From a virus, in the IMG/VR virus record IMGVR_UViG_3300046007_013221, positions 1-25,598 of that record: 25,598 nt of DNA, one strand, 5' to 3'. The position numbers and the translations under genes were made by a program. This document shows positions 5,045 through 23,802 of the stretch, piece after piece. Under the pieces are notes generated by a model. That model searched no databases. It saw only the letters and a list, made by a program, of their open reading frames with translations, and was not told the origin of the DNA. Positions within the stretch are counted from its first letter, which is position 1; every line of letters starts with the position of its first letter.

Positions 5045-5079
5045 TATTTATCTTAACAGTTTCTTTGGGATTATGTCAA
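5045..5079 (-). promoter_or_regulatory. Porin promoter, sigma70-like with an overlapping late motif
   Basis: On the minus strand TTGACA (5074-5079), 18-base spacer, TAAGAT (5050-5055). Overlapping the -10 is GATAAATA (5045-5052), one base from the T4 late octamer. The leader to the porin ATG would be about 70 bases. The -35 overlaps the stop codon of the upstream glycosyltransferase gene. Confidence 0.55.
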
Positions 5080-5873
5080 GTATTTTGCTGTACCGAAGAG
5101 TTTTCAGTTATTCTACCAAGATAAGGATCATAATTCATATAATCTTTAATATCAATTTGAGCACCTTGCTGTTGCCAATAATTCAATAATGCATCATGAG
5201 GTGCTTTATGAAAGATTCCAAGATGTTCTGGATGAATCGCAGAACCCATTTCAAGATTATAAAGAAAAAGAGGAATAGTGTAAGTTTTACCAGTTTCTAG
5301 GATAGTATCTTCTGATACTGCTCGCGGTTTTACACCGTTATCAAGTTTATACTTATCCCCACGAATATGGTGTTTCATCATTTTTGCCGCATGATGACGA
5401 CTAATCAAATAAATTGCTGCAGAAAAATCATTAATAAACTTTAAATGCAATTTAACATGAATATCTCCAGTACAAATTGTAGTTAATTGAACACAATCCC
5501 AATCGTAAGGAACTTCAGCAAAAAAATCCGTCCAGGTAAAATTCCAATATTTTACAATATCAAAATTCACATCATCCTCAAGGATGAGGCAATAATCATC
5601 ATCACTATTCTCATAAAAATGCTTAATTGCCTTTAGATGGGACATACAGCATCCCAATTCATTTTGACTTACATTATCAGGAATTCTACCTTTCAAATAA
5701 AGAGACACATCATCATCTCTTCCATCATACCCAGAGATACGAATATGATTTTCAATTTCCCAATACTTAAATTGATTTTCCATATACTCCCGACGATGAG
5801 TATCTGCATCAAGATTGATCCAGTAAATATATGGAATACCGTTAAGTTTATATACTGATTTATTCCTGTCCAT
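5076..5873 (-). CDS. Glycosyltransferase family 25 (LPS-type)
   Basis: A 265-residue GT25 enzyme, the family that adds galactose or glucose to lipooligosaccharides. Landmarks in order: YWINLDADTHRREYM near the N terminus (family motif INLD..RR), NELGCCMSH at 71-79, and the metal-binding acidic motif LILEDDVNF (E99-D100-D101). The C-terminal region has the expected late SEDTILE acidic motif. Last gene of the long sugar cluster; its start lies inside the end of the preceding glycosyltransferase gene (14-base overlap). Acts on the cytoplasmic side of the membrane. Acceptor and donor cannot be told from sequence. Confidence 0.87.
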   Translation of the reverse strand: MDRNKSVYKLNGIPYIYWINLDADTHRREYMENQFKYWEIENHIRISGYDGRDDDVSLYLKGRIPDNVSQNELGCCMSHLKAIKHFYENSDDDYCLILEDDVNFDIVKYWNFTWTDFFAEVPYDWDCVQLTTICTGDIHVKLHLKFINDFSAAIYLISRHHAAKMMKHHIRGDKYKLDNGVKPRAVSEDTILETGKTYTIPLFLYNLEMGSAIHPEHLGIFHKAPHDALLNYWQQQGAQIDIKDYMNYDPYLGRITENSSVQQNT

Positions 5874-6825
5874 TGATTATCTTTTTTATATAAGGAAGAT
5901 GATATGATTGGAGGATATTTTTCCAATCAAAAGTTTGAGAATACTTTAAAATATTTTCTCTATTTTGTAAAGATATTTCCCTATTTTGAATTATACATTT
6001 TTCAACATATTCAATATCTTCAATTTTATTTTCAGGAATAACCGTAATGTACTCTTTAGAAAGATCTAAATTTGCAGTTGACCATTCCGAAATGACGAGT
6101 CCTAGTCCAGCAGATAATGCTTCCATACAAACTAGAGGATGTGCTTCACCATCAGAAAGAAGAACTAAATTACCATACTCAGTAAGGTTTTGATAGAGTT
6201 TTTCTTTAGTCCATTCGCCAAGATAATTTTTTGAATTCTCATCAAATCTTCCGTTAGCAGTAGAGTCAATATTTCCTGCATAATAAAGTGAATCAATATT
6301 TTGAAATAACCATTGACGTTTTCTATGATCCACTTTAGCTAGATAAATGCTTCGGTCTCCATGTTTTGGGGATAATGTTTTTCTAAATTTATTAAAGTTA
6401 ACTCCATTAGGAGTAACAAAAAGTTTTTCCTGAGGTATGTTGGAAACTGTTTTATAAACTTCATTAATGCCTTCAGAAAGACCAAAAACATTTGGTTTAA
6501 TTTGCCCAAACAAATCAAAAACCCGATGCTTATATGGGCCCATTTTACCTGGTTGCTCAATATAAGCAAAATGCGTTGTTACTGCACATGGATACTGAAT
6601 ATAAGGAACTAAGAATACATAGTCATCATATTGAATATGAACAAAATCAGGAGTAAACTGATTAATTAAATTAATAATTTCTCGTAGATCTGTTGTATTG
6701 ATGATTTGAACTTCATGTCCCAATTCTTTTAGGGACAGATACATATCCCAAACTACCATCTCTACAGCACCCCACCCAGTCGGTGGTATTTGAGTATATC
6801 CTGGACCAATAATTGTTATTTTCAT
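5860..6825 (-). CDS. GT4-like glycosyltransferase (copy A of a tandem pair)
   Basis: A 321-residue GT-B fold retaining glycosyltransferase. The N-terminal half has MKITIIGPGYTQIPPTGWGA (glycine-rich acceptor domain, GWGAVE at 17-22). The C-terminal half has TPNGVNFNKF at 138-147, a basic donor-phosphate motif KVDHRKRQ at 164-171, and E227-x7-E235 in DGEAHPLVCMEALSAG, the classical nucleotide-sugar motif. It is about 50 residues shorter than many GT4 enzymes. Paralogue of the gene directly upstream (6822-7790), with shared IGPG, GWGAVE, RSIYLAK, NYLGEW and LLSDGE motifs. Starts overlap by 4 bases (ATGA-type coupling). Sugar specificity unknown. Confidence 0.85.
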   Translation of the reverse strand: MKITIIGPGYTQIPPTGWGAVEMVVWDMYLSLKELGHEVQIINTTDLREIINLINQFTPDFVHIQYDDYVFLVPYIQYPCAVTTHFAYIEQPGKMGPYKHRVFDLFGQIKPNVFGLSEGINEVYKTVSNIPQEKLFVTPNGVNFNKFRKTLSPKHGDRSIYLAKVDHRKRQWLFQNIDSLYYAGNIDSTANGRFDENSKNYLGEWTKEKLYQNLTEYGNLVLLSDGEAHPLVCMEALSAGLGLVISEWSTANLDLSKEYITVIPENKIEDIEYVEKCIIQNREISLQNRENILKYSQTFDWKNILQSYHLPYIKKIINGQE

Positions 6826-7790
6826 AGTAAATCTTTTATATTTTTCTCATAGATTCTAACAAGTTTTTCCCAAGACCAATTCTCTACTCCATATTCGCGG
6901 ATCTTATCTCTCATTGTTAATGAAATATCTCTATTCTCCTTTATTTTTCTCTCAACATAATCAAGATCTTCCCACTTATCATCGTCAATAATAGTTACAA
7001 AAGGAAGAGATGGGTCTAATTCGTGAGATGCCCATTTGGAAACAACTACTCCAAGACCAGCCATGAATGCCTCTTTAATAACAAGAGGGGAACCATTCTC
7101 ACCGTCAGACAATAGTATTAGGTTTGCATAATCAGTAAGATGGTTCAGTTTATAATCATGTTCCCACTCACCAAGATAGTTGGGATGATTTTTTTTAAAT
7201 GGAGTTGATGTTGTAAAGTGACCTACGAAATCAATACTATTAATTGTTTGATAGATATACTGTCGTTTTCTAAGTTCAATCTTTGCAAGATAAATCGATC
7301 TATCTGGAATTAGGCAATCAATGTTAAAATTGATTTCCTTATGATTAGCTCCATTCTTACAAATACGAAGAAATTTTGGATCAGCTCCAGCAGATAAAAA
7401 AGCATTATAGTCTTTCTCAGAAATACAAAAATTATAATACTTCTTATTATTCGTTAAAAACTCAAATACAGGAGCATATCCATACATTTTATGAATTTCT
7501 GGCCTTTCAATATAAGCATGATGACTACTTATTGATATTTTTGCTTTTGGTTGAACTTTACTAACTCTATCCAGTATTGGATAAAACATATCATAATGGA
7601 GATGAATAAAATCATATTCATCTTTTTTAAGTTCATCAATAATATCATCATAATCTGGAGTATTAATAATAGTTCCAGTATGTCCTAGTTCACCTAGTTC
7701 TTTTGCATACTCCCATACTAAAATTTCAACTGCCCCCCATCCATTGGGAGGGATTGGCAAAATACCAGGACCAATAAATGCTATATTCAT
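6822..7790 (-). CDS. GT4-like glycosyltransferase (copy B of a tandem pair)
   Basis: A 322-residue paralogue of the following gene, same length and domain order: MNIAFIGPGILPIPPNGWGA at the N terminus, CKNGANHKEINF in place of the PNGV motif, KIELRKRQYIY as the basic motif at 170-180, and an acidic region DGENGSPLVIKEAFMAGLG. Here the two Glu are separated by eight residues (E231, E240), not seven as in copy A, so nucleotide-sugar binding may differ. Likely acts in the same glycan pathway with a different donor or linkage. Separated by nine bases from the GT6 gene upstream. Confidence 0.84.
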   Translation of the reverse strand: MNIAFIGPGILPIPPNGWGAVEILVWEYAKELGELGHTGTIINTPDYDDIIDELKKDEYDFIHLHYDMFYPILDRVSKVQPKAKISISSHHAYIERPEIHKMYGYAPVFEFLTNNKKYYNFCISEKDYNAFLSAGADPKFLRICKNGANHKEINFNIDCLIPDRSIYLAKIELRKRQYIYQTINSIDFVGHFTTSTPFKKNHPNYLGEWEHDYKLNHLTDYANLILLSDGENGSPLVIKEAFMAGLGVVVSKWASHELDPSLPFVTIIDDDKWEDLDYVERKIKENRDISLTMRDKIREYGVENWSWEKLVRIYEKNIKDLL

Positions 7791-7799
7791 TTTGTTAAA

Positions 7800-8528
7800 T
7801 CACCACTCGTTGTTTCCTAAAGACTTATTATTTTTTACCAAATGAACTATTTTCTTGGGGAAATTACAATAATTTTCAAAAAGTTCAGGGAAAGCAAAGG
7901 AGGGATGTAAAGTTTTAGTTTCCTCCCTGTGCATTAAAAACCACTTGTTCATATAACTTTCTTCATAGTATCTTGCCTGAACTCCATTATTAACATCATC
8001 CTTTGTCCAATTATCAATCTCCCTCATCATATCAAATACATAAGGAATTTTTCCTCCCCATAAACACCCTTGCCAATAGATATCCATATCCAGAATATCT
8101 TTGACACACGCATTTGATTCTGGATTAATATCGTAACATCCTGGGTATTGATCATGAGGGCCAAATCCAACAAAGTGACACGGATGATGAACTCCAATAT
8201 ACTTCTTAGTTTCATCAAAAACTTCATCATATTCAATTTTATCGTAGACTTTCATATCAGCATCAACTGATAACATCCATTGACAATCTTGAACAAAATC
8301 TTCTATCTTTAAAATTTCCTCAAATGTCATATTAAATGTTGTAGGAAATCCATAATCTGGGATTTTCATAGTAACAACATTTGATGGCGAATTGATTAAT
8401 TCGCCATCAGTAAAAATAAAATACTTTTTTTCTACATTCGGTAAAAAGTTTTCTTCGAGAGAAAAATACCACGCGGGAAGAAACTCAATATATTTCTGAG
8501 TTCCCCAAAAAGTTAGGGCTATTTTCAT
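7800..8528 (-). CDS. GT6-family (ABO blood-group-type) glycosyltransferase
   Basis: A 242-residue protein resembling family 6 retaining alpha-1,3-Gal/GalNAc transferases. Motifs in family order: YFIFTDGE at about 36-43, a metal-binding DxD as D89-A90-D91 (WMLSVDADMKV), HHP then GCYDINPESNACV at 130-142, YWQGCLWGGK at 151-160, and YYEESYMNKWFLMHR, where E190 matches the catalytic Glu of the vertebrate HDESHLNKY motif. It is catalytic-domain only, without the N-terminal anchor of vertebrate members. Many bacterial GT6 proteins replace DxD by NxN, whereas this one keeps DxD; I recall the same for a GT6 in cyanophage P-SSM2. Vertebrate GT6 enzymes act on galactose, often fucosylated, and fucosylation genes lie nearby. 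Confidence 0.85.
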   Translation of the reverse strand: MKIALTFWGTQKYIEFLPAWYFSLEENFLPNVEKKYFIFTDGELINSPSNVVTMKIPDYGFPTTFNMTFEEILKIEDFVQDCQWMLSVDADMKVYDKIEYDEVFDETKKYIGVHHPCHFVGFGPHDQYPGCYDINPESNACVKDILDMDIYWQGCLWGGKIPYVFDMMREIDNWTKDDVNNGVQARYYEESYMNKWFLMHREETKTLHPSFAFPELFENYCNFPKKIVHLVKNNKSLGNNEW

Positions 8529-9313
8529 ATCAATTTATGTCTAGGAAACCAATCGAAATTTTTACAAACTCTAGAATTTTCTACATGCAAATATGTTTTC
8601 AATTCTTTTTGATTAAATTTTAACAATAAACTACCATTTGAACAAATTATACTTATAATTTCTTTAATTGTCAAACTTTGAGATCCCACAATAAACATTT
8701 GATGTTTTATAATGTTTTCTTTTTCAAGACATTTAAGAATTAAATCAACTAAATCATCTATATGAATAATATCAACTCTTGTATCCAAATTTGTATAAAT
8801 CTCTGTTACATTATCAGTATTCAAATTTTTAATTAATTTATCCACTAGTCCATTAATCCTAGTATCTTTAATACACTTTGCACCCCAAACATTAGAAACT
8901 CTAAATGTAACCGTATCACAGTCCAAATCTTTCAAAATATTTTCAACAAGAAGTTTTGTTTCTCCATATAAAGTTGTTGGCTTTGGTGGCATTTCTTCAG
9001 TTACAGTCCTCTCATATCCTTTATAAAAATCCCCAGCCGAAGAAAGAAAAATAATTTTTCCGTTTGGATTTTTTTGTAGGTAATAATCAAAAAGTTTTTT
9101 ACTATTAATTACATCATTCTTTAATGACTCCTCCAAACAACTATAATTAGTTCTAGTTGTAGAAGACCAAGCTAAATGAATTAAACATGATTTTTCATGA
9201 GATTCAAAAACATCTTTCACCTCATCCCGATAAGATACTTTTTTAATAGGACCCTTATAAATTTCACAAAATTTAGTGCCTATTAATCCATTTGCACCGG
9301 TAACATAAATCAT
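8525..9313 (-). CDS. NAD(P)-dependent sugar epimerase/dehydratase (extended SDR)
   Basis: A 262-residue extended short-chain dehydrogenase. The Rossmann motif TGANGLIG is at residues 5-12 and the catalytic Y116-x3-K120 is in LYGETK. SSAGDFY supplies the usual catalytic Ser region, and VDIIHIDDLVDLIL is the conserved substrate-domain motif. It probably interconverts or dehydrates a nucleotide sugar, but substrate cannot be assigned. The frame is open to a TTG at 9328, but ATG 9311-9313 overlaps the preceding stop (ATGA) and starts immediately before the Rossmann strand, so it is preferred. Its stop overlaps the GT6 start. Confidence 0.82.
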   Translation of the reverse strand: MIYVTGANGLIGTKFCEIYKGPIKKVSYRDEVKDVFESHEKSCLIHLAWSSTTRTNYSCLEESLKNDVINSKKLFDYYLQKNPNGKIIFLSSAGDFYKGYERTVTEEMPPKPTTLYGETKLLVENILKDLDCDTVTFRVSNVWGAKCIKDTRINGLVDKLIKNLNTDNVTEIYTNLDTRVDIIHIDDLVDLILKCLEKENIIKHQMFIVGSQSLTIKEIISIICSNGSLLLKFNQKELKTYLHVENSRVCKNFDWFPRHKLI

Positions 9314-10137
9314 TCTACTACAATCCAATTTTTAGGAAGAATATCACAAGTATTTAAATGCGAATTATTTGGGCCAAACCATTTTTTAGGGTTCGGACTA
9401 TAAACTGTTTTATTTACGTTTTTAGAAAGCCATGCGCCCCACCAAGAAAAAGATGAATTGGCAATAATAAAATCAGTACAAAGACTCATCAAACAAAGAT
9501 CAATATATCCAGAATTTTTTTCGGATATCAAAAACCTATCACTAGAAAATATTTCTTGATTTTTACACCATTCTGTATCATCAGAAAAAACAATCACCGG
9601 AAGGTCTGCGGAAAAATTAGATAAAGTCTTTTCATAATATTCTAAATTAAGATTAGTATGATTTTCTGAATTTGTCAAATAATCAGTTCTTCTAACATGC
9701 AAGGATATGATCCTATCACTAGAAATAGAATCGATCATTTCTTTGCATGAATTTAATATTTCACTTTTAAATGTAAAGTCTTTTCGTATAGTATCCTCAA
9801 CATTCTTAAAGTATTTTTCTGTCTGGAAAAACCCATACAAGGAAACCCAATTGGGACAATTATTAAATAGGTTTTCATTGAAGTTATGGTTATCTTCAGA
9901 AACAATAGGTCTGTTTTGATCTATGAACTGAATATTTAAAGCAGACACACTACCCATCTCAAAACAATCAAAAAGTTCAGTTCTTAGCATATTACCAATT
10001 CCATCATTAACTGAATCAGTATAATATGGAAGACAAAAATTACAATCTCTATTATGTGATATACCCCTCAAAGCCGCATATTGAAACATTTGGTTTCCCA
10101 AACGTCCAAGTCTTCCTAAGTGATTAAAACCTATCAT
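9310..10137 (-). CDS. GT11 fucosyltransferase (alpha-1,2 type)
   Basis: A 275-residue inverting GT11 enzyme expected to transfer L-fucose from GDP-fucose to a galactose-containing acceptor. Motifs: LGNQMFQYAAL at 13-23, the GDP-fucose-binding HVRRTDYL at 147-154, VFSDDTEWC at 183-191, and IANSSFSWWGAWLS at 225-238, then PKKWFG near the C terminus. All four GT11 signature regions are intact and length is normal for bacterial members. Four-base overlaps with both neighbours. It sits near a GDP-fucose-synthase-like reductase and a GT6 gene, as if making a blood-group-like branch. Confidence 0.92.
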   Translation of the reverse strand: MIGFNHLGRLGRLGNQMFQYAALRGISHNRDCNFCLPYYTDSVNDGIGNMLRTELFDCFEMGSVSALNIQFIDQNRPIVSEDNHNFNENLFNNCPNWVSLYGFFQTEKYFKNVEDTIRKDFTFKSEILNSCKEMIDSISSDRIISLHVRRTDYLTNSENHTNLNLEYYEKTLSNFSADLPVIVFSDDTEWCKNQEIFSSDRFLISEKNSGYIDLCLMSLCTDFIIANSSFSWWGAWLSKNVNKTVYSPNPKKWFGPNNSHLNTCDILPKNWIVVE

Positions 10138-10943
10138 TTTGCAAGCTCCTGTATAAATTCATAATCCCGATGTAAATTTGCATAATTCTCAAATGCTAAG
10201 AAAAGATCTAGATGATTTTTGTAAACATACGCCATAGCGTTTTGCTCATTGTTTATCACATTATTGGATATCATTTTTTTCTGCAATACATCATCTATTA
10301 AATTACAGAACTTAGTTAGAACTTGACCACCACCACCCCAAAGACCTGCCATAACCCATGTTCTTGCATCCCAAAAATATTCTTCTGTACACACATCTGC
10401 ATTAACAAGATCAGGATAATAAGACATTGATGTTTGAATTATAACTTTGTCCTTATTTTCATTCATTGAATATAATCCATTTTTTGATGGGTAATGATTA
10501 TTAAGATCATCACTATCAAAAAATCTAGAAAGACCAGCATCCATCCACATAAAAAGATCTGTATTAAAGTAATTTTCTTTGATTACTTTTTTAACCCATT
10601 GAAATTTAGAAAATATAATTACATTATACAATGGATTTTTACATTCAACTCTATTGGGAGCACCAATCTTATTTTTAAAATCTACAGACTCTAAAATTGC
10701 TTTTATTTTTTCATTTAGAAAGTAGTACGGAACTTCATCAATTTCTTGTTCCACAATTTTTGTAGGGAGATTATTTCGATATTTCTCAACAAATGAAACT
10801 AAACTCTTGGAGACAAAGATTACCATTGGAGATGGAATCTTCAAAGTTTGAGAGAACCAAGAAAGATACTCATCGAAAGTTCTGCCATCCCCATTAGTCT
10901 CTCGGTTTATATCATATAGTGCAGTAACTAAAGTGATAGACAT
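10134..10943 (-). CDS. HtrL/YibB-like protein, probable glycosyltransferase
   Basis: A 269-residue protein resembling the HtrL/YibB/WlaTC family found in LPS and capsule loci. It begins MSITLVTALYDINRE, carries FMWMDAGLSRFF at 131-142 (the conserved W-x-D-x-G motif, likely metal/nucleotide-sugar binding) and VMAGLWGGGG near 197-206, then a C-terminal NEQNAMAYVY segment resembling the late acidic motif of GT-A enzymes. No signal peptide or membrane segment. Five bases downstream of the fucose-synthase-like gene and overlapping the GT11 start. A glycosyltransferase role is inferred from fold-like motifs and context; the sugar is unknown. Confidence 0.75.
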   Translation of the reverse strand: MSITLVTALYDINRETNGDGRTFDEYLSWFSQTLKIPSPMVIFVSKSLVSFVEKYRNNLPTKIVEQEIDEVPYYFLNEKIKAILESVDFKNKIGAPNRVECKNPLYNVIIFSKFQWVKKVIKENYFNTDLFMWMDAGLSRFFDSDDLNNHYPSKNGLYSMNENKDKVIIQTSMSYYPDLVNADVCTEEYFWDARTWVMAGLWGGGGQVLTKFCNLIDDVLQKKMISNNVINNEQNAMAYVYKNHLDLFLAFENYANLHRDYEFIQELAK

Positions 10944-10948
10944 AAAAT

Positions 10949-11839
10949 TTAAATATCAATTTTTATAGTATTTTTATACCAATCTATTGTTTTCTTTATT
11001 CCCATTCGAAGGTCTGTAAAGGTAAAATCGCCAATAATGCTTTTTAGTTTTGTATTATCGACGATTTTTACTTGTTCACCAATTACTTTATTAGAATCAA
11101 AGATAACGTTATTCTTAAAATCAAGATTTTCCATGATAGCATCAACAATATCTAAAATTGAAATTGACTTATCAGATGAAACAATTATTGGATCTTTTAT
11201 ATCTTTATTAAAAATAATCTCATCTAAGATTTGATTTAGATCTTCAACATACAAATAATTACGAAAAACTTTTCCATTACCGTAAAGATGAACGTCGGTA
11301 TTTTCCTGAATTGCTTTATAAAAACGATAAATCAAATTATGTATGACTGTTCCATCTTGATGAAATTTACCATAAGGACCATAAGTATTACCAAGATATA
11401 TTGACTTATAATTTAAATCATAGTCTAATTGATATGCTTTACAAAGACCAACACATATTTTTTTAGAGTATGCATACCCAAAAATATTTTCGTTGACTTC
11501 CCCATGTATTGATTTTTCAGTAAATGGTGAAGGGTGATTGGGATCAAAAGAGGTGATGGTAGAAAGCATTAATAAATTTTCTACACCAGTTTCTCTACAT
11601 GCTTTAATAATATTAAGATCGCTTATTATATTATTCTCAATATATTGACTGTGGTTTTTTAACATCTCAACAGCAGATCCATGTTTTGATGCTGTATGAA
11701 TTACCGTCGTTGGGGAATATTTTTTGAAAGATTGTATGACGGAATTATAATCCGTAAGATCACAATCAAATCTAGATAACTTCACATCAGAAGAGATATT
11801 ACTTCCAATAAATCCATTACCACCAGTTAAGAGTTTCAT
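10949..11839 (-). CDS. GDP-L-fucose synthase-like epimerase/reductase
   Basis: A 296-residue extended SDR similar in pattern to GDP-4-keto-6-deoxymannose epimerase/reductase (Fcl/WcaG). It has GGNGFIG at 6-12, the triad Ser region MLSTITSF, Y122-x3-K126 (GYAYSKK), IYLGNTYGPYGKFH at 147-160 (Fcl-type NLYGP..NFH), and FRNYLYVEDL, the R-x-FLYVDD region. The nearby GT11 enzymes would need GDP-fucose. The partner Gmd (GDP-mannose dehydratase) is not in this window, so the host or another phage locus would have to supply it. Other 6-deoxy-sugar reductases remain possible. Four-base overlap with the gene upstream. Confidence 0.75.
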   Translation of the reverse strand: MKLLTGGNGFIGSNISSDVKLSRFDCDLTDYNSVIQSFKKYSPTTVIHTASKHGSAVEMLKNHSQYIENNIISDLNIIKACRETGVENLLMLSTITSFDPNHPSPFTEKSIHGEVNENIFGYAYSKKICVGLCKAYQLDYDLNYKSIYLGNTYGPYGKFHQDGTVIHNLIYRFYKAIQENTDVHLYGNGKVFRNYLYVEDLNQILDEIIFNKDIKDPIIVSSDKSISILDIVDAIMENLDFKNNVIFDSNKVIGEQVKIVDNTKLKSIIGDFTFTDLRMGIKKTIDWYKNTIKIDI

Positions 11840-12555
11840 TTATTTTTTATTGCAATGTATCTGTCTTCATCATCAACCCACAAATTGGGTCCTTTTTCTG
11901 TTGGTATTAAATCACCAGTCCAAGGATAGTATATTTCACTTGCATTTGAAAGAAATGCTGCCCACCAACAATATGTTGAAGGAGTTAAAAGAATTTTATT
12001 GGCAGACATAATCAAAGCAAATTGTTCTAGGATGGAATATTTGGCTTTGATAACCTCAACACCCAAAGAATTCATGAAATCAAAAAATGGATCATCAAAC
12101 GTATCAGTACAAAGAATAATTCTATTATAACTCACTTTTTCAAAAACTTCAATAAAAAATTCTTTAGGTGGGCACATTGAAGTTGGATACCCATTCCACC
12201 CTCTACGAATTGAAACCACGAAGTCATCAGGCAAAACTTCAATTGGGGAATTAACATCTAATTGAAACCATTCTTTAACTTTTTGTTTATGATTTTTAAT
12301 ATACTCATAACGTTGAACATAACCAGACATTTCAATTCTGCAGTTAGAATCTATTTCTTCCAGATTAATATAATGTCCATGAATGGTAATAACTGGTTCA
12401 GAAAAAACATTCCCATCGATTTTTTCCAAGGTTTTTGGAAATCCAGGAATTGAATAGCAATCTAACTTTAGATTATTTTCTTCAGCAATTACGCGAGAAA
12501 AAGCGTATTGCCACATATTATTACCAAGAGTACCTAACCTGTTTACTTGAATCAT
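11836..12555 (-). CDS. Divergent GT11-like fucosyltransferase
   Basis: A 239-residue protein with the GT11 plan in shorter, altered form: LGTLGNNMWQYAFSR at 7-21 (family LGNQMFQYA), VSIRRGWNGYP at 114-124 in the place of HxRRxDY, ILCTDTFDDPFF near 147-158, and LTPSTYCWWAAFLS at 190-203 (family ANSSFSWWGAWL). The usual His before RR is Ile and the Asp after it is replaced by Gly/Trp, so donor binding may differ from true fucosyltransferases. Start overlaps the Ugd-like stop by one base (TAATG). Likely a glycosyltransferase; fucose specificity is uncertain. Confidence 0.72.
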   Translation of the reverse strand: MIQVNRLGTLGNNMWQYAFSRVIAEENNLKLDCYSIPGFPKTLEKIDGNVFSEPVITIHGHYINLEEIDSNCRIEMSGYVQRYEYIKNHKQKVKEWFQLDVNSPIEVLPDDFVVSIRRGWNGYPTSMCPPKEFFIEVFEKVSYNRIILCTDTFDDPFFDFMNSLGVEVIKAKYSILEQFALIMSANKILLTPSTYCWWAAFLSNASEIYYPWTGDLIPTEKGPNLWVDDEDRYIAIKNK

Positions 12556-13331: not shown

Positions 13332-13344
13332 TTTTACTTTCCAG

Positions 13345-14834: not shown

Positions 14835-14835
14835 A

Positions 14836-16008
14836 TCAGTCCTCCGTTACAGCAACACCATGATAAACGGCAGTTTTTCCATCATAAGAAGAAATGCCAT
14901 GCTTACCATAGTATTCCTTTACCCAATAAATGACATAATCAATATCTTCCTGAGTCATTCCAGGATGACAGGGAAGACTAAGTAATTTTCTCCATTCACG
15001 ATCAGCAACTTGATAATCACGATTCTGTTTTACAATACTATACTTATGCAGTGGTTTAAAGTGAACACTGGTATGAATCTTCTTATCTGCAAGATAATCA
15101 ATCATATCATCACGCTCAGCAGAAGGAACACGAGCACAATAGTACTGAACAGTTTCTGACCAGGGAGGAGTGCGAATTAAACCTTCAAGACCTTCATTAT
15201 AACACTTTTGAATATGGCGCCGCCATTCAAGATGTTTAGGAAGTTTCTTCATTTGTTCCAAGCAAATCGCTGCCTGAAGATCAATCATATAACACTTATA
15301 ACCAAGAACATCTACCTCATAATCCCAAGAATATCCAGGTTTACCCGTAAAACCATCATCTTTACGAACACGAGAATAAGTACTACTAATACCCAACCAA
15401 GTCATTGGAACCAACTTCTCATAAAGATCCTTATCATTTGTAGTGATCATTCCACCATCACCACATGGCATAGTTTTCACTGCCTGAAATGACCACACAG
15501 CAACGTCTCCTTTTGCTCCAGCGCCAGGAGTGTAGCAACTATGAGCACAATCTTCTAGGATTAAACCATCATAGAACTTACGGATTTCATCAATCGGTGC
15601 CGGAACACCAGCATGATTTACGGCAATAATCGCTTTTGTATCTGAACGAAGATTTTTTCTGACATCTTCTGGGTCCAAACAAAGAGTGTCATCCAAAACA
15701 TCAACGATATTGGAAGTGCAATTATTCCATAGAGGAACAACAGCAGTTGTCATAAAAGAAATAGTAGGATTGATAATATCACAATCTTTAATTCCAAGTG
15801 CTTTAAGAACTAGATCCTGCCCACTTGTTGCACTATTAACTGCAATAGCATACTTTGCCCCAACTAGTTCTGCAAATTTTTTTTCAAACTCTGCAACTTT
15901 TGGACCTTTACCCCACCACCCACTTTCAATTGATTCTCTTATAGAATTAAGTTCCTCTTCTCCACCAACAGGACGAAGAACTGGAAGCATAGTATCACGA
16001 ATTTTCAT
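14836..16008 (-). CDS. DegT/DnrJ/EryC1/StrS-family sugar aminotransferase
   Basis: A 390-residue PLP-dependent enzyme that converts a keto nucleotide sugar to an amino sugar. N-terminal SGWWGKGPKVAEFEKKFA is the usual DegT opening, NSATSGQDL binds PLP phosphate, LEDCAHS contains the PLP-contacting D153, and SFQAVKTMPCGDGGMI holds the Schiff-base lysine K178. Length is normal. GGAG eight bases before the ATG is a good ribosome site. DNA looks less AT-rich than the flanking glycosyltransferases. It implies at least one amino sugar in the glycan. Some DegT members act as sugar dehydratases, but those replace the Lys by His, so transamination is expected here. Confidence 0.92.
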   Translation of the reverse strand: MKIRDTMLPVLRPVGGEEELNSIRESIESGWWGKGPKVAEFEKKFAELVGAKYAIAVNSATSGQDLVLKALGIKDCDIINPTISFMTTAVVPLWNNCTSNIVDVLDDTLCLDPEDVRKNLRSDTKAIIAVNHAGVPAPIDEIRKFYDGLILEDCAHSCYTPGAGAKGDVAVWSFQAVKTMPCGDGGMITTNDKDLYEKLVPMTWLGISSTYSRVRKDDGFTGKPGYSWDYEVDVLGYKCYMIDLQAAICLEQMKKLPKHLEWRRHIQKCYNEGLEGLIRTPPWSETVQYYCARVPSAERDDMIDYLADKKIHTSVHFKPLHKYSIVKQNRDYQVADREWRKLLSLPCHPGMTQEDIDYVIYWVKEYYGKHGISSYDGKTAVYHGVAVTED

Positions 16009-16011
16009 TTA

Positions 16012-16680
16012 TCAATCTCCAATTTTATACAAAACGTGGTCAATAAGGCTATTATTTATTGTTTCCACCACTTCATAATTATCTGTAATTTTTGGCAATT
16101 TTAACTCTATCCATTTAGGTTCAGTAATTATAACATAACGAGAAATCTTTGGCAAAGTATCAAACAGTTTTTTTATTTCTAAACTTTGATGATCATTTCC
16201 ATGTAAAAAATTTAAAATAGAAACGCAATCAAAAAGAGGTTCATTGTATTCATCAAAAAAATCTCCAAATGTTTTGATGTTTCCTACATATCCATATTTT
16301 TGATTTTCAAAGTTTCTTTTAAAAATTTCTTCGGATCCTCTTAAACAATTTTCTCTTGGGTCAATTCCAACAGAGAATATTTCTTTTTTATTGCATAGAA
16401 AAGAGAAATGATTAGTTGCACATCCTATATCTAAATTTGACTTGATTTTATGTTTTAAAAATATGTCAACAACACCATTCCAAAGGTTCCATCTAGTTTT
16501 TCTTGCATATTCATCATTTAAATAATAATTTGTAATATTTTCATCTTCAAAATAATCTACACAATTTGCGTGCCATCTAATATCGCTATTATTTGAGTGC
16601 CAGTCAGAAATTTGAGAAATTTGATTATAAGAATATTTTTCAAATTCACTCATTACCTTAAACAGAAAGTCTTTATTCAT
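16012..16680 (-). CDS. Class I SAM-dependent methyltransferase, putative
   Basis: A 222-residue protein with a Rossmann-type SAM-binding core: SNLDIGCATNHFSFL at 81-95 (motif I) and VGIDPREN at 104-111 (acidic end of strand 2), then FDCVSILNFLHGNDH as motif IV-like and YVIITEPKWIELKLP. The first 75 residues are helical and aromatic-rich (NLWNGVVDIF) and may recognise substrate. No family-specific signature lets me name the acceptor. Gaps to the neighbouring genes are three bases on both sides. Together with the FkbM and 19649-20431 genes it gives the cluster three candidate methyltransferases. Confidence 0.75.
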   Translation of the reverse strand: MNKDFLFKVMSEFEKYSYNQISQISDWHSNNSDIRWHANCVDYFEDENITNYYLNDEYARKTRWNLWNGVVDIFLKHKIKSNLDIGCATNHFSFLCNKKEIFSVGIDPRENCLRGSEEIFKRNFENQKYGYVGNIKTFGDFFDEYNEPLFDCVSILNFLHGNDHQSLEIKKLFDTLPKISRYVIITEPKWIELKLPKITDNYEVVETINNSLIDHVLYKIGD

Positions 16681-16683
16681 AAT

Positions 16684-17382
16684 TCAACAAAAATGAAAAT
16701 TATTGATATCTAAAGGATTACCACTCCTCTCCCAATCGTTACGGATTAATCCCAACCAATTTAATAATTCATAGTTGATATTTTTTTCTTTAACAAAATC
16801 AAAAAGATTAACCTCCGAAGAAATGTGTTTTTCAGAAAGTTCATTTAACCGATTCATACTGTAATCAGAATAATCTTTCATTAAAGAAGATTTCATAGAA
16901 AAATATGTGTCATTAAAATTATTTCTCTCGTTACAGCGAACAATTCCATTCAAATAAACATGATCGTTTTGAACCATTATGGCATCATATTTTGTTTGTT
17001 CTGTTTTTTCAAAAGCATATGGACATGTCCACATTCTCCTACCAGTAACATAAGAAATATTGTTATAATTTTCTAAATCTATTTCTTGAAGGGCTTTATA
17101 TAGCATTAAAATCTCACCACATCCTTTATTTTTCTTACCAATATTATCATCACTTCCGAGAGAAATAATTTCCAAATCACTAAAATATTCTCTTACTTCA
17201 AGATTTTGTATTTCTTCTGGATGGTTAATAGTATTTTCACAAACTATAAGATTAAAAGAATCTGGTATGATTCTTTTAATCTGTTTGATGCAATTATAAT
17301 ATTCTACTTCCCTTTGAGAACAAACATTAGAATTTAATTGTTGTGGACGAATAGAACAAAATACAAGTGCTAAGTTTTTCAT
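16684..17382 (-). CDS. Unidentified cluster protein, possible glycosyltransferase
   Basis: A 232-residue soluble protein I do not recognise. It begins MKNLALVFCSIRPQQ, like the first strand of a GT-A or Rossmann fold. The middle has KGCGEILMLYKAL, then ISYVTGRRMWTCPYAFE, and later DHVYLNGIVRCNERNNFNDT, a pattern reminiscent of nucleotide-sugar transferases (strand, acceptor loop), but without an obvious DxD. It is rich in Asn and Tyr. Two bases follow the GDP-mannose-epimerase-like stop, and it precedes a methyltransferase, so it surely belongs to the glycan operon. Function is inferred from position only. Confidence 0.65.
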   Translation of the reverse strand: MKNLALVFCSIRPQQLNSNVCSQREVEYYNCIKQIKRIIPDSFNLIVCENTINHPEEIQNLEVREYFSDLEIISLGSDDNIGKKNKGCGEILMLYKALQEIDLENYNNISYVTGRRMWTCPYAFEKTEQTKYDAIMVQNDHVYLNGIVRCNERNNFNDTYFSMKSSLMKDYSDYSMNRLNELSEKHISSEVNLFDFVKEKNINYELLNWLGLIRNDWERSGNPLDINNFHFC

Positions 17383-17384
17383 AA

Positions 17385-18440
17385 TTATTTTACTAAAGTT
17401 GAATCAATTTGTTCTTTAATCCAAGCATATGTTTTTGAAATTCCTTCTTCCAGTGATTGAGAATAGTCCCATCCAAGTTCTTTACGGATCAAATCATTGT
17501 TGGAATTACGACCTCGAACACCCAAAGGTCCATCGATATGGTTTTTTTGAATAGTTTTTCCAGCAACCCTAGCAGCAGTTTCTACAAGTTGATTGATAGA
17601 CACCATTTCTTCAGAACCAATATTAACTGGTCCAATAAACTCTGACTCCATCATTCTACGGGTTGCTTCAATACATTCATCAATGTACAAGAAGGAACGA
17701 GTTTGTAATCCATCTCCCCACACTTCAATGGTTCCACCTTCTTTAGGGAGATACGCTACTTTACGACAGATTGCTGCTGGTGATTTTTCTCTACCCCCTT
17801 CCCAAGTTCCTTCTGGTCCAAAGATATTATGATACCTAGCAACCCGAACAGGGATCCCATAATTACGATGATAAGCGAAAAACAACCGCTCTGAGAACAA
17901 TTTCTCCCAACCATATTCAGAATCGGGTGCTGCGGGATATGCTGATTCTTCACGGCAATCAGGATTATCTGGATCAAGTTGTTTGTACTCTGGATACATG
18001 CAGGCAGAGCTAGAATAAAAGATTTTTGTTTTGTTTACTCCTTTAAAGTCATTCAGTTGACGTTGTGCCTCAAGAACATTCAGATTAATAGATGCAGAAT
18101 TATGCATAATATCTGCATCATTCTCGCCAGTAAATACAAACCCTGCTCCGCCCATATCAGCAGCAAACTGATAGACTTCATCAAAGGTATCAATATACCT
18201 TGATGGGACAAAATTATAAAAATTGCGATAAGGACCTTTATACTGAAGAACCCTCTCAACAAAAGTTGGATCCCTCAGGTCACCTTGAATAAATTCATGT
18301 GCTTCTGTTTCAGAAAATTCCGGATGCTTTAAATCAACACCACGAACCCAATATCCTTCCGATCGTAGTCGTTTAATCATGTGATTTCCTATAAAACCAC
18401 CAGCACCAAGAACCAGTGCTGTTTTTTTATAATCACTCAT
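17385..18440 (-). CDS. GDP-mannose 3,5-epimerase-like enzyme
   Basis: A 351-residue extended SDR closely matching the plant/bacterial GME pattern: GAGGFIG at 12-18, DEVYQFAADMGGAGFV at 87-102, SSACMYPE at 144-151 with active-site C147, Y176-x3-K180 (EYGWEK), YHNIFGPEGTWEGGREKSPA with K219, WGDGLQTRSFLYIDEC at 241-256, and GVRGRNSNNDLI near the C terminus. Both acid/base residues of GME (the Cys and the second Lys) are present. GME converts GDP-mannose to GDP-L-galactose and GDP-L-gulose. AAGGAGAA upstream is a good ribosome site, and the 39-base gap before it is the widest in the cluster. Less AT-rich than its neighbours. Confidence 0.9.
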   Translation of the reverse strand: MSDYKKTALVLGAGGFIGNHMIKRLRSEGYWVRGVDLKHPEFSETEAHEFIQGDLRDPTFVERVLQYKGPYRNFYNFVPSRYIDTFDEVYQFAADMGGAGFVFTGENDADIMHNSASINLNVLEAQRQLNDFKGVNKTKIFYSSSACMYPEYKQLDPDNPDCREESAYPAAPDSEYGWEKLFSERLFFAYHRNYGIPVRVARYHNIFGPEGTWEGGREKSPAAICRKVAYLPKEGGTIEVWGDGLQTRSFLYIDECIEATRRMMESEFIGPVNIGSEEMVSINQLVETAARVAGKTIQKNHIDGPLGVRGRNSNNDLIRKELGWDYSQSLEEGISKTYAWIKEQIDSTLVK

Positions 18441-18479
18441 TTAAGTTCTCCTTTTATTTACAAAATATAATAATATTTT

Positions 18480-19646
18480 TTACAGATTTACAACAAATAC
18501 GGGGTCAATAATATATTTTATATCATCTACAAATCTAACCCTATCACCATATTTATCGATCAAATAATCACATACTTGAGGAATAATCTTTTTATCATTG
18601 AGAATATAGACAATATTTCCTCTATCCAATAAATCAGTACAAAGACGATATTGTTGACTTTCAGTAATAATATCGGTTCCTTTTTTATAAGTTATATATT
18701 CAAAATAAAAAGGTTTATTGTCTTTATTGATTTTTTCATAATAATCACAAATAAAGGTTGCGTGCTGATTATTAATCTCATCAGTGACTGTTCCTAGATT
18801 ATATTCTAAACCAACTTTCTTTGCAAAGGCAGCAAATGATCTATTATCTCTTGGAAGACAGGGACCACCATAACCAAATCCATATTTGAGATATTTTCTT
18901 CCAATTCTACTATCAGTTCCAATAGAATTTAATACTGATGTGACTTCATCACCACATCCAGAATGATGTAGAATGTCTCCCAACATATTTGCATAACTAA
19001 TTTTTGTTGTTAAGAAGCAATTAATTGCTATTTTAGTAATTTCTGCTGCAGTTGTTGACATTGTACATACAATTGCACGGGTTGTCTGAATTTTTTCATA
19101 CAACTTTCTCATATTAGAAACAATTAGATCTGTCTGATCAGAATGGTCTATTCCCAATAGAACCATATCAGCAGTACGTAAATCATTAATTATAGATCCC
19201 TGAGCAATAAATTCTGGATTATAAAGAACTTTTATTTTTGATGGGAGATGCTTTTTAAATTTATCACAATCTCCAGGGTTTACAGTGCATCCAACTACAA
19301 AATACTTTTTTGTTGAAATGTTTTCAACTTCTTTTTTAATATCTTCTATAACATCCCAGACATAAGAAATATCATAAGATCCATCTTCAAGAGAAGGAGT
19401 TGATACTAATGTATAAATTAAATCACATTCACGAATAACTTCTTTGTTGTCAGTAGTTGCTCTAAAATTTTTAGCAGTCCTAAGAATATTTTCTACCTCA
19501 GGTTCATTTGTAATAATTTTACGATTGTTTAAATCATTAATATAATCTTCTCTAATATCAGAGACTAATACATCGTATCCTGCTGCTTCACACAAAAGTG
19601 CGAAACAAATTCCAAGTCTACCTGCACCAATTACTCCTATTTTCAT
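18480..19646 (-). CDS. UDP-glucose/GDP-mannose 6-dehydrogenase family protein
   Basis: A 388-residue nucleotide-sugar dehydrogenase expected to oxidise UDP-glucose, GDP-mannose or a relative twice to the uronic acid using NAD. N-terminal VIGAGRLGICFA at 5-16, YNPEFIAQGS at 142-151, ITKIAINCFLTTKISYAN at 203-220 with K205, and the catalytic Cys C263 in YGFGYGGPCLPRDN are all there. A C-terminal domain of about 110 residues (IVYILNDKKIIPQVCDYL) is retained, unlike the short homologue at 12555-13331. Two bases separate it from the upstream methyltransferase. The exact nucleotide sugar cannot be read from the sequence. Confidence 0.88.
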   Translation of the reverse strand: MKIGVIGAGRLGICFALLCEAAGYDVLVSDIREDYINDLNNRKIITNEPEVENILRTAKNFRATTDNKEVIRECDLIYTLVSTPSLEDGSYDISYVWDVIEDIKKEVENISTKKYFVVGCTVNPGDCDKFKKHLPSKIKVLYNPEFIAQGSIINDLRTADMVLLGIDHSDQTDLIVSNMRKLYEKIQTTRAIVCTMSTTAAEITKIAINCFLTTKISYANMLGDILHHSGCGDEVTSVLNSIGTDSRIGRKYLKYGFGYGGPCLPRDNRSFAAFAKKVGLEYNLGTVTDEINNQHATFICDYYEKINKDNKPFYFEYITYKKGTDIITESQQYRLCTDLLDRGNIVYILNDKKIIPQVCDYLIDKYGDRVRFVDDIKYIIDPVFVVNL

Positions 19647-19648
19647 AA

Positions 19649-20431
19649 TTATTCCTTTTTAATTTTAGATGTAATCAATAAATGCCATCCAAGTTTTTTT
19701 TCAAGAATTTTAAACATTTCATCAGGCATTACTTCAAACCAAGGTTGTTTTATATATTCTCCCCTTTTATAAGGTTCAATTTGATATGGAAAAATATGAT
19801 CTTTTTGAATACTTATAATTTCAAAGTCATCGCCCAAAAGATCTTTAACTTCATCTTCAGTGTATGTATATGCAATAGGACATCCATATTGTGCTTCTGG
19901 TTGATCCAATCCAGAACCAATCATATAATTTTTCCATGAATTAGAAGAATAAAGCATCATTTTAAATACTCCATTCTTGTGAAGATACTTTTTTACTTCA
20001 TTTATTACTTTTTGTGGATTGGGTGTATGATGAATTACTCCCCAAGAATAAATTAAATCAAATTTTTCTTCTGGAAGAAAATCAGATAAATTTTCAGCAT
20101 TCCCTTCATAAAAATTCCCATTTAAATTATAAACTTCAAATCTTTTTTTTGCAAGGTCTAAACTTTCTTTAGACAATTCAATACCAGTATAATCTGCACC
20201 ATAACGAGCAAAATTAATTCCAGCAGTTGCCAAACCACATCCAATCTCAAGAACTTTTTTTCCATTCCAAAGATTAAATTCAGAAAAAGATTTAATATGA
20301 GGTTCTACAAAAAATTTCTTTTTTTCTACCTCATCGAAATATTCTTTAGTTCCAACTTCTCTTTTAGAATGTCTTATGTTACAAGGGCGATTATCCCAAA
20401 AATCTTTTACTTCAGTAATTGATGCTGTCAT
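19649..20431 (-). CDS. Class I SAM-dependent methyltransferase (UbiE/COQ5-like)
   Basis: A 260-residue methyltransferase. It has an N-terminal KDFWDNRPCNIRHS segment often seen at the start of small-molecule methyltransferases in sugar clusters, motif I KVLEIGCGLATAG at 59-71, YTGIELSKESLDLA at 81-94, and motif IV FDLIYSWGVIHHTPNP at 124-139. The C-terminal part contains a Tyr/Pro-rich segment. The gene overlaps the nadE-like stop by four bases. Substrate unknown; a sugar or a lipid-linked intermediate is likely from context. Confidence 0.85.
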   Translation of the reverse strand: MTASITEVKDFWDNRPCNIRHSKREVGTKEYFDEVEKKKFFVEPHIKSFSEFNLWNGKKVLEIGCGLATAGINFARYGADYTGIELSKESLDLAKKRFEVYNLNGNFYEGNAENLSDFLPEEKFDLIYSWGVIHHTPNPQKVINEVKKYLHKNGVFKMMLYSSNSWKNYMIGSGLDQPEAQYGCPIAYTYTEDEVKDLLGDDFEIISIQKDHIFPYQIEPYKRGEYIKQPWFEVMPDEMFKILEKKLGWHLLITSKIKKE

Positions 20432-21201
20432 AATTTAAATGTAGGAATAGAAATCATTTTATGCTTATTTTGATTATTAAATTTTTTATATATTTGAATG
20501 GCATTGATTTGCTCCTCACTCAGGAACATTGGATCTTCATTTATCCCCTTTTCCATAACCCACTCAAGCATTTCATACGAAGTTCCAATTTGGTCTTCAT
20601 CTGTTCTTCCATCATCCCAAAGACCATCAGTTGGTTTTGCCTCGATAATTCGTTGGTCTATTCCCAATGATTTACCAAGTTGCCACACCTCAGTCTTATA
20701 AAGATCTGCAATAGGAGCAATATCTACGCCACCATCACCATATTTAGTATAAAATCCTATACCATAATCTTCAACTTTATTTCCAGTTCCCACAACAATA
20801 CCACCAACAGATGCGGCAATTTGATAAAGAGTTACCATACGAAGACGAGAACGAGTATTAGCAAGAGCATGAGAATTTATACTAAATTCACCTATCTCAT
20901 TTTTAAAAGATTCAAATACTTCCGAAAGATTATACTTCTGAACTATTACATTGCTAAAATTTTTTTGTAGATATTCTAAATGTAAATTAGAAAGATTTTC
21001 ATGTTCTTCTTTCTGGTGGATAGGCATACCTAATGCATAAACAGGCAATCCTGTTTTAGCAGAAAGTATTGAAGAAACAGCAGAATCAATTCCTCCAGAA
21101 ACACCAATTACAAATGCATTTATACTGTTAGTAACAGTATAATCATACATCCAATCAATAATATCTGTAGATAATTTTTTATAATCAGAAATCCTGTTCA
21201 T
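20428..21201 (-). CDS. nadE: NH3-dependent NAD synthetase-like enzyme
   Basis: A 257-residue N-type ATP pyrophosphatase. SGGIDSA at 35-41 binds ATP phosphates, GTGNKVEDYGIGFYTKYGDG at 138-157 is the deamido-NAD/ATP lid region typical of NadE, and KPTDGLWDDGRTDEDQIG at 189-206 matches the NadE loop. It lacks a glutaminase domain, so ammonia would be the nitrogen donor. It would amidate nicotinate adenine dinucleotide to NAD. In this cluster it could replenish NAD for the many NAD-dependent sugar enzymes, or have been recruited to amidate a uronic acid; the NadE-specific loops favour the first. Four-base overlaps on both sides. Confidence 0.85.
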   Translation of the reverse strand: MNRISDYKKLSTDIIDWMYDYTVTNSINAFVIGVSGGIDSAVSSILSAKTGLPVYALGMPIHQKEEHENLSNLHLEYLQKNFSNVIVQKYNLSEVFESFKNEIGEFSINSHALANTRSRLRMVTLYQIAASVGGIVVGTGNKVEDYGIGFYTKYGDGGVDIAPIADLYKTEVWQLGKSLGIDQRIIEAKPTDGLWDDGRTDEDQIGTSYEMLEWVMEKGINEDPMFLSEEQINAIQIYKKFNNQNKHKMISIPTFKL

Positions 21202-22901
21202 TTTTTAATGAATAATAAATTTTCAACAACAATAAAGTCCAATTCAGTATTTTCCAACACATGAAATGCATCTTCAACCGTAGTTAGTATGGGTTTCCCC
21301 CTAATATTAAAAGATGTATTCATAATCATAGCAGGATATTGTCTATTAGACAACTCTGTTAAGATTTCATAAAACAAGGAATGTTGTTCTTTAGTTACTG
21401 TTTGAAGTCTTGCAGTTCCATCCTCGTGAGTAATTGAGGGAAATACACTTTTATACTCTTCTTTTACTGTTGGCGCAAAACTCATATACTCAGATGAATA
21501 TGCATTATCAAAATATAAATCTTTATCTTCTTCTCTACAAACCGGAGCAAAGGGTCTAAACCATTCTCTAAATTTTACCTTAGAATTAATAATATCTTTC
21601 ATATCCGAAATAGAAGGATCGCAAATAATACTTCTATTTCCCAATGCTCTAGGACCAACTTCAGAATATCCTGCAATTATTCCACCAATCTTTCCACCTT
21701 TAATTAAATCAACTATTCTAGGAATTGTAGCATATTCAACTCTATCTTGATATTGTTGATAATAATATGGTATTTTATCTCTATCTAAAATATCAAATCC
21801 ACAATAAGGAGACAAATTAATTTCCAAAGTTTGATAATAAGTAAAATGCCCCAGAGATAAACCACAATCATTTGGGTTTGGTGGAATATACAACTTCAAT
21901 CCCTTTGATTCTAAGTATTCTTTCAACTTTTGATTGAAGATAACATTTAAAGCACATCCACCAGAAAATACCAAATCCAAATTATACTTTTCAATATATG
22001 GTTTTATAAGCGAGAAACATAAATTCTCAAACACATATTGATTTGTTGCAGCCAAATCATAAGAATCTTGTCCACTGAAGCAATCAGTAAAAAGTTCTAC
22101 TCCCATTTCTTTAGACATTTGTTCTACAGCGGGTCCTTGATACGACCAATGAACTAATGGATGCTGCCTATAAAATTTTTCTATTGGGGAAACCCATTCT
22201 GGTCTAACTTTACCATAAGCAGAAAGACCCATTATTTTACCTGCATATGCTAAAGAAGATTTTTGATCTGGATCACCATTATTTCCCTTGGTTATTTCTT
22301 TAACAAAGTGCCCAAAATATCCATAAATTCCAGGATCAAATATAAACGGATTATTTCCAAAATTTACATGCCCTAAAGTAATAAACTCTTCTTTAGAGAA
22401 AAAATATACACTATAACTTCTCAATGACATTTCACTAAGAGTTTGATAATCCATCCCCCCAGCATCAAGTGACATTACAAGACATTCTTTACCAAATCCA
22501 CTCTGGAAATATGCTCCAGCGCAATGAGACATATGATGCCCCATTCTAAAAAATTGTGATTTGGGGAAATATTTTAGAAGAAAAGTTATATCACAATTAT
22601 CTAATTCACTATGTAATATTATTTCTGGTTCTTCATTTAAGTGAATTTTTAAATAAGTTAAAAATTCATGTCTACATTTATCGTCTATAGAATGATTTGC
22701 CCCATCAAGTTCTGCCTGTTTTTTAAACGCAGCATATCTTTTTTTACAAAATCGCTCCAATTCAAATATTCTTATATCTCCATTTTTATCTATAAAAGTG
22801 AAAGAAGAATCGTGACATCCATTAATTGCTAAAACTTTTTTACTGGCTAAAAAGGTTTTTAATTCTTTTGGTTTCAAAAATAGATCGCTATGGGCATTCA
22901 T
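21198..22901 (-). CDS. NodU/CmcH-type carbamoyltransferase
   Basis: A 567-residue O-carbamoyltransferase that moves carbamoyl from carbamoyl phosphate, through carbamoyl-AMP, to a hydroxyl of a sugar. The N-terminal Kae1-like domain has INGCHDSS near 26-33 and metal-binding GHHMSHCAGAYFQSG at 121-135, MSLDAGGMDY at 143-152 and FSGGCALNVIFNQ at 312-324. The C-terminal YrdC-like part has SEVGPRALGNRSIICDP at 413-429, REWFRPFAPV and NTSFNIRGKPI. It is complete in length and motifs. First gene of the long sugar operon. The leader carries no convincing promoter or ribosome site, though a terminator hairpin isolates it from the right-hand genes. Confidence 0.93.
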   Translation of the reverse strand: MNAHSDLFLKPKELKTFLASKKVLAINGCHDSSFTFIDKNGDIRIFELERFCKKRYAAFKKQAELDGANHSIDDKCRHEFLTYLKIHLNEEPEIILHSELDNCDITFLLKYFPKSQFFRMGHHMSHCAGAYFQSGFGKECLVMSLDAGGMDYQTLSEMSLRSYSVYFFSKEEFITLGHVNFGNNPFIFDPGIYGYFGHFVKEITKGNNGDPDQKSSLAYAGKIMGLSAYGKVRPEWVSPIEKFYRQHPLVHWSYQGPAVEQMSKEMGVELFTDCFSGQDSYDLAATNQYVFENLCFSLIKPYIEKYNLDLVFSGGCALNVIFNQKLKEYLESKGLKLYIPPNPNDCGLSLGHFTYYQTLEINLSPYCGFDILDRDKIPYYYQQYQDRVEYATIPRIVDLIKGGKIGGIIAGYSEVGPRALGNRSIICDPSISDMKDIINSKVKFREWFRPFAPVCREEDKDLYFDNAYSSEYMSFAPTVKEEYKSVFPSITHEDGTARLQTVTKEQHSLFYEILTELSNRQYPAMIMNTSFNIRGKPILTTVEDAFHVLENTELDFIVVENLLFIKK

Positions 22902-22937
22902 TAGATTAAATAAGACAATATTTTTTATGTATATAAA

Positions 22938-23784: not shown

Positions 23785-23802
23785 AAAGTAAGATTTTATG
23801 AG

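Follow-up and report, generated by a model that had tools for sequence, protein, structure and literature searches.

Lipopolysaccharide (LPS) gene clusters were previously described in the cyanophages P-SSM2, S-SSM7 and S-SM2 as large groups of sugar genes that lie close to hli genes and tRNAs and show co-occurring gene sets, and whether they are functional or stuffer DNA was left undecided (PMC3037559). The T4-like cyanophage S-SCSM1 carries GMD, GDP-L-fucose synthase, GDP-mannose 3,5-epimerase (GME) and alpha-1,2-fucosyltransferase genes (PMC9602691), comparable genes are carried by pelagiphages (PMC7029224), and a role of the cyanophage clusters in changing the surface of the host has been proposed (PMC3037559, PMC9602691). 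The locus analysed here is a cluster of 20 glycan-synthesis genes at 5076–22901 of the IMG/VR record IMGVR_UViG_3300046007_013221, the whole of which (25,598 bases from a larger genome) is referred to as the window. It is the same kind of locus as those of P-SSM2, S-SSM7 and S-SM2, and it differs from S-SCSM1 in having GME without GMD and in its GT6, NadE–Ugd, DegT and carbamoyltransferase modules. In bacterial O-antigen loci and seroconverting temperate phages, an exchangeable block lies between conserved edges and changes the surface glycan. The window differs from these in having no flippase, polymerase or initiating transferase and in belonging to a lytic-type phage. We favour, at a probability of roughly 0.6, the reading that the cluster is a phage-borne, serotype-like glycan cassette that remodels a host-surface glycan during infection. 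The cluster kind is already known in cyanophages; the open-access literature searched did not contain the selection test, the exact exchange or the statistics on module linkage given below, and priority is not claimed for them.

The flanks place the window in a T4-like cyanophage (Kyanoviridae), presumably infecting Synechococcus-type cyanobacteria, and the DNA matches of the window include Synechococcus phages such as S-SRM01 and DSL-LC03. The flanks harbor tRNA-Val, tRNA-Ser and tRNA-Pro and encode a Phd-like antitoxin, an SLH/OprB porin, a small chlorophyll-binding (hli-like) protein, ferredoxin, peroxiredoxin, a C39-like peptidase and a phage lysozyme, and the cluster lies between the porin and the tRNA-Pro side with a G+C content of about 30%. 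The locus is thus a Kyanoviridae LPS/glycan cluster, a block of sugar genes near tRNAs and hli genes whose genes are intact and under selection. The tightly packed, leftward 20-gene arrangement reported in the initial annotation was recovered in full, all 20 open reading frames (ORFs) being on the minus strand and overlapping or separated by small gaps, the largest of which (39 bp) lies between GME and Ugd (Table 1). A chance arrangement is excluded because homologous clusters occupy the same genomic place in isolated cyanophages and hundreds of viral contigs. Families were assigned by Pfam, PHROG and NCBIfam profile matches, which bore out nearly all the gene names given earlier: GT25, two GT4-like, GT6, GT11 (one strong and one weak), HtrL/YibB, FkbM and DegT, together with two Ugd-family proteins, NadE, a carbamoyltransferase, two more S-adenosylmethionine (SAM) methyltransferases and three short-chain dehydrogenases/reductases (SDRs).

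Table 1. Features of the glycan cluster and its borders in the window; G001 and G002 are two related contigs
Feature	Position	Strand	Basis
GT25 glycosyltransferase (phrog_2835), last gene; right edge of swapped cassette at ATG	5076..5873	-	profile; 97–98% amino acid identity in G001/G002
GT4-like glycosyltransferase (phrog_33732)	5860..6825	-	profile; within 4 kb of GT25 in 76/89 loci
GT4-like glycosyltransferase, second copy	6822..7790	-	phrog_33732, E 3e-80
GT6 glycosyltransferase (ABO-transferase family), DxD and catalytic Glu	7800..8528	-	profile, alignment
SDR, epimerase-like, between GT11 and GT6	8525..9328	-	near GT6 in 26/26 GT6 loci having this SDR
GT11 (alpha-1,2-fucosyltransferase family)	9310..10137	-	profile; near GT6 in 88/96 GT6 loci
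HtrL/YibB family, probable glycosyltransferase	10134..10943	-	PF09612, E 3e-21
SDR of GDP-fucose synthase family without epimerase Cys and His	10949..11839	-	alignment, profile
Divergent GT11-like protein	11836..12555	-	weak profile matches
Short UDPG/GDP-mannose dehydrogenase-family protein without C-terminal domain	12555..13331	-	profile; equally short in relatives
FkbM methyltransferase	13345..13968	-	profile
GT-D/TagA-WecG-like glycosyltransferase	13965..14834	-	AlphaFold2, Foldseek, weak PF03808
DegT/PseC/ArnB-family sugar aminotransferase	14836..16008	-	profile; near GT-D gene in 36/37 loci
SAM methyltransferase	16012..16680	-	matches below Pfam cut-off only
Orphan protein (ORF232), GT-A-like fold, probable glycosyltransferase	16684..17382	-	AlphaFold2, Foldseek
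GME, predicted GDP-L-galactose/L-gulose source; contains left edge of swapped cassette	17385..18440	-	
Nucleotide-sugar dehydrogenase (Ugd family), catalytic Lys/Asn/Cys/Asp kept	18480..19646	-	NadE within 4 kb in 59/59 loci
SAM methyltransferase (phrog_22502)	19649..20431	-	near NadE in 12/12 loci
NH3-dependent NAD synthetase homologue	20428..21201	-	profile
NodU-type carbamoyltransferase, first gene	21198..22901	-	profile
Exchanged 14-gene block, unrelated sequence in relatives with 93–95% identical flanks	5874..17405	-	
SLH+OprB porin gene, right flank of locus	3507..4973	-	protein family match
Hairpin then T-run just before cluster, terminator-like	22935..22966	-	z -3.5; absent from relative L064
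Sigma-70-like promoter match TTGACT-17-TATAAT, upstream of cluster	23515..23543	-	consensus match only
Phd-like antitoxin and tRNA-Pro, conserved left boundary of locus in related phages	23554..23876	-	

The product of the gene first described as GME-like is strongly supported by alignment as a GDP-mannose 3,5-epimerase, as it scores 292 bits with Arabidopsis GME and no other solved SDR exceeds 87 bits with it, and its catalytic Cys, Tyr, two Lys and Arg, as named in PMC6678494, are invariant in 182/182 phage relatives. The catalytic Cys, Lys, YxxxK and Arg are common to the phage protein and the plant and bacterial GME (PMC6678494), with a strong sequence match, whereas the phage protein has extra residues in its N-terminal half compared with the plant enzyme and is phage-borne. 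Scoring 125 bits with the human enzyme, the SDR annotated as Fcl-like does fall within the GDP-fucose synthase family, but in the alignment Ile replaces the epimerase Cys and Tyr replaces the His. In GDP-fucose synthase this Cys and His pair carries out the epimerisation. Because both residues are lost, the protein is probably not a working Fcl, and that annotation is weakened. Both presumed Ugd genes are members of the family; the shorter one has its catalytic residues and lacks the C-terminal nucleotide-binding (dehydrogenase) domain, and it is regarded as a conserved short form since its closest relatives (255–266 amino acids) have the same length, by which its being a pseudogene was rejected. 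The nearest counterparts of the GT6 are the human ABO transferases, and its DxD and Glu are found in 161/161 phage relatives. BoGT6a of the same family acts on 2'-fucosyl-lactose and is metal-independent, whereas the window GT6 retains DxD like the mammalian metal-dependent enzymes; GT6 genes in two cyanophages had been noted in the same work (PMC3961637). The HxRRxD motif of the strong GT11 is present as HVRRTD, and the motif occurs in 315 of 388 relatives. The NadE homologue has the ATP-binding SGGxDS motif, and its conserved GTxN...E...YTKYGDGG region argues for NAD synthesis as its likely activity, while the full linkage of Ugd to it means that amide formation may be possible.

Two further proteins were assigned by their predicted folds, profile searches of both against PDB sequences having given no match and only the folds being informative. 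ORF232, which has no family match, was modelled by AlphaFold2 (mean confidence, pLDDT, 86), and its Foldseek matches are GT-A enzymes including BoGT6a (TM score 0.5–0.6), so that the model makes it a probable glycosyltransferase. The GT-D-like guess for the second protein agrees with its fold (pLDDT 91), for which the top Foldseek matches are a DUF1792 GT-D enzyme (E 6e-4, TM about 0.5) and, similarly close, TagA; PF03808 matches weakly in 24/25 members of this family. ORF232 included, the cluster encodes nine probable glycosyltransferases; the initial annotation gave "seven or more glycosyltransferase types".

The 20 cluster genes are intact and kept by purifying selection. The ratios of nonsynonymous to synonymous substitution (dN/dS), calculated by the Nei-Gojobori method against the closest relatives, were 0.04–0.33 where computable, similar to those of the flanking porin and lysozyme, with the divergent GT11 (GT11b) and the GT-D gene saturated at synonymous sites, and saturation-free pairs of low divergence (proportion of synonymous differences, pS, 0.08–0.19) gave 0.06 for Ugd, 0.07 for the methyltransferase MT_c, 0.09 for the carbamoyltransferase and 0.19 for NadE. 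Few disrupted frames were observed. The possibility that such clusters serve only to fill space, without function, when larger genomes are packaged by the headful was raised in the work in which most of the extra length of the largest cyanophage genomes was found to consist of large clusters (PMC3037559), an observation in its favour; the low dN/dS and the invariant active sites (182/182 and 161/161) argue against it and led to its rejection, and with frames seldom disrupted and module linkage conserved its probability is close to nil. The 2010 publication did not decide whether these clusters have a function in large cyanophages, and the selection and active-site results argue for one.

Exchange of a block within the cluster was observed in contigs G001 and G002, which are 93–95% identical to the window over 17406–25598 and 2794/3321–5873 and unrelated over 5874–17405. 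The right edge of the block is exactly the GT25 ATG, upstream of which the DNA is unrelated in both contigs, and the left edge lies inside GME, where identity falls along the gene from about 98–100% to 51%. In G002 the interior spans 7.6 kb, and its genes were named by eye as methyltransferase-like, transferase-like and heptose-type. No other near-identical pair with swapped interiors was found among 62 complete clusters, so the swap rests on a single case with two relatives. Block exchange with conserved edges fits selection for surface diversity.

Related clusters were gathered by anchors, giving 385 loci (269 nonredundant) whose frequencies are therefore not population frequencies and in which the window proteins were located by tblastn, and 62 nonredundant clusters with both boundaries were taken as complete. 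The isolates Bellamy, Sf-FS3, SynMITS9220M01, S-SRM01 and P-TIM68 have a sugar cluster at the equivalent place, after tRNA, Phd or small ORFs and before porin, hli or PstS genes, with GT25 last and GME or GMD near the front, whereas their interiors differ, containing heptose, phosphatase and aldolase genes or GMD–Fcl in contrast to the DegT/GT-D/HtrL set of the window. The cluster genes travel as modules, namely NadE–Ugd (NadE within 4 kb at every one of 59 Ugd loci), GT11–GT6, and ORF232–DegT–GTD (32/32 and 36/37 loci), and GME, GT11 and GT6 are consecutive genes in Bellamy and SynMITS9220M01. S-SRM01 and two contigs have a true GMD, which the four GME-bearing isolates lack. GT11 was found in 61 of the 62 complete clusters, the lone cluster without it having GME; 28 of the 61 carry GME only, 20 GMD only, 6 both and 7 neither, so that 54/61 have GME and/or GMD, and the GDP-sugar source feeding GT11 is usually one or the other. 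With reference genomes and clusters retrieved through GME or NadE left aside, GME occurs in 8 of the remaining 33 complete clusters, and Ugd occurs only together with GME in the list of complete clusters. Strict mutual exclusion of GME and GMD was rejected, as both are present in 6/62 complete clusters; one only tends to stand in for the other, a Fisher test on GT11+GT6 loci giving p = 0.001 with the anchor bias still present. Contigs L389 and L386, filed as Rhodobacteraceae and Euryarchaeota metagenome-assembled genomes, look like misbinned cyanophage DNA.

Searches of 15 related phage records, made up of five complete isolate genomes and ten contigs, gave no match to the Wzy_C/WaaL (PF04932), Wzx (PF01943), Bac_transf (PF02397) or WecA/MraY-type (PF00953) families, while control genomes matched, and the window likewise gave none. 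The locus is therefore not a complete O-antigen or capsule locus with flippase, polymerase or ligase and initiating transferase, in line with the initial annotation, and no full O-antigen set was seen next door in the window or the 15 records. A full O-antigen or capsule system formed jointly with phage genes outside the fragment would be compatible with the window being part of a larger genome and with the additional sugar genes that a related phage has elsewhere (a 774-amino-acid FkbM-GT-GT25 fusion); given the lack of Wzx, Wzy/WaaL, Bac_transf or PNPT matches in the 15 records, in which ABC-transporter-type export was not searched, we consider it improbable. The fusion, at L468:16273-18597 in G002, has FkbM-like and GT25-like parts and is the second GT25 of that genome. 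With assembly and initiation families absent, the products most likely decorate a pre-existing host structure. The decorating role first suggested thus stands for a cluster without its own assembly machinery, whose acceptor may be a host glycan, a lipid carrier or the virion.

In the favoured reading of a cassette remodelling the host surface, the target would most likely be the O-chain or outer LPS part of the host cell. The phage GME would turn host GDP-mannose into GDP-L-galactose (and L-gulose), other phage enzymes would yield one oxidised and possibly one aminated sugar, the nine glycosyltransferases would add the residues, and the methyl- and carbamoyltransferases would cap them, with the lipid carrier, flippase, polymerase and ligase supplied by the host. 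GT11 would probably take the GME product and GT6 then add the neighbouring residue, as in the ABO blood-group pathway; by this analogy the gene order GME, GT11, GT6 would point to an ABO-like branch with L-galactose in place of L-fucose. The altered surface could block rival phages or grazers. Substrates, pathway order, acceptor, timing and benefit are inferred from these gene families and their arrangement. Should the reading be confirmed, picocyanobacteria would carry a surface dictated by the virus during infection, ahead of lysis, with effects on superinfection and possibly on grazing. The GME–GT11–GT6 prediction names a testable sugar (L-galactose) and isolated phages (Bellamy, SynMITS9220M01).

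The supply of sugar donors was assessed in 121 genomes of the Prochlorococcus/Synechococcus family (61 for GMD). GDP-mannose pyrophosphorylase (ManC) exceeded the cut-off in 108/121, indicating that GDP-mannose is available in hosts, and GME was found in 2/121 and GT6 in 1/121 against GMD in 35/61, indicating that the sugar made by the phage enzymes would be an uncommon one in most hosts; phage-type NadE was found in 0/121 in a search without a positive control. A more specific form of the reading, which we hold only tentatively and as unlikely in its entirety, is a glycan that most hosts cannot make, in which GT11 would add L-galactose before GT6, a hexuronamide would arise through GME, Ugd and NadE with the NadE-like protein amidating a nucleotide-uronic acid, and the serotype would be switched by swapping the GME–GT25 block. 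Some hosts do share the GME gene, as the Prochlorococcus contigs L387, L388 and L390 carry it, in L387 beside a Ugd homologue; this neighbour (L387:11181-13220) appears by eye to be fused to a C-terminal domain resembling a 2-oxoglutarate (2OG)-dioxygenase.

Several points weigh against the host-surface reading. We know of no experiment tying any such cluster to an LPS change, the sequence does not identify the acceptor, the specificities of GT11 and GT6 are taken from their families, and both GME-bearing host-family genomes were already known to carry GME. The expression signals give weak hints on timing: the promoter matches come from consensus scans only, and the hairpin before the cluster could block read-through from the upstream promoter. 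The ATAAATA motif marks late genes in such phages. It was found 13–72 bases before the porin, the C39 peptidase, o168 and o83 and not before the cluster, which would favour the host-surface reading, but it is not in statistical excess.

The absence of this late-type motif at the cluster also speaks against the reading that the phage glycosylates its own virion proteins, such as collagen-like tail fibres, with GT25 acting like collagen/lysyl-hydroxylase-type glucosyltransferases. Collagen-like G-x-Q tail-fibre repeats and 2OG-Fe(II) hydroxylase-like proteins encoded elsewhere in the G002 genome, a hydroxylase adjoining GT25 in Sf-FS3, and soluble glycosyltransferases without lipid-pathway genes are all compatible with it. 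However, only 1/133 loci has a hydroxylase homologue (four query sequences) no farther than 1.5 kb from GT25, and nine glycosyltransferases with many tailoring enzymes in a block-swapped arrangement are closer to surface-polysaccharide loci than to a protein O-glycosylation set, leaving virion glycosylation possible but doubtful. At L468:4261-9797 in G002, the collagen-like tail-fibre gene and two 2OG-Fe(II) oxygenase-like genes were seen by eye upstream of psbD/psbA. Attachment of the sugars to phage DNA or a small molecule, as a nucleotide hypermodification, would likewise employ glycosyltransferases, which are many here, and T4-like phages are known to glucosylate their DNA. Among the genes of the window, though, none was recognised as encoding a hydroxymethylase or another base-modifying enzyme, and the methyl and carbamoyl caps, the many families of glycosyltransferases and the synthesis of GDP-L-sugars fit a branched oligosaccharide rather than DNA modification, which makes this reading very improbable.

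The porin adjoining the cluster shows 96–97% protein identity in relatives, and the G+C content changes from 45% to 31% at the porin/cluster border. On the opposite side, the Phd-like antitoxin (23554–23784) has no evident toxin partner and occupies the same place beside tRNA-Pro in related phages.

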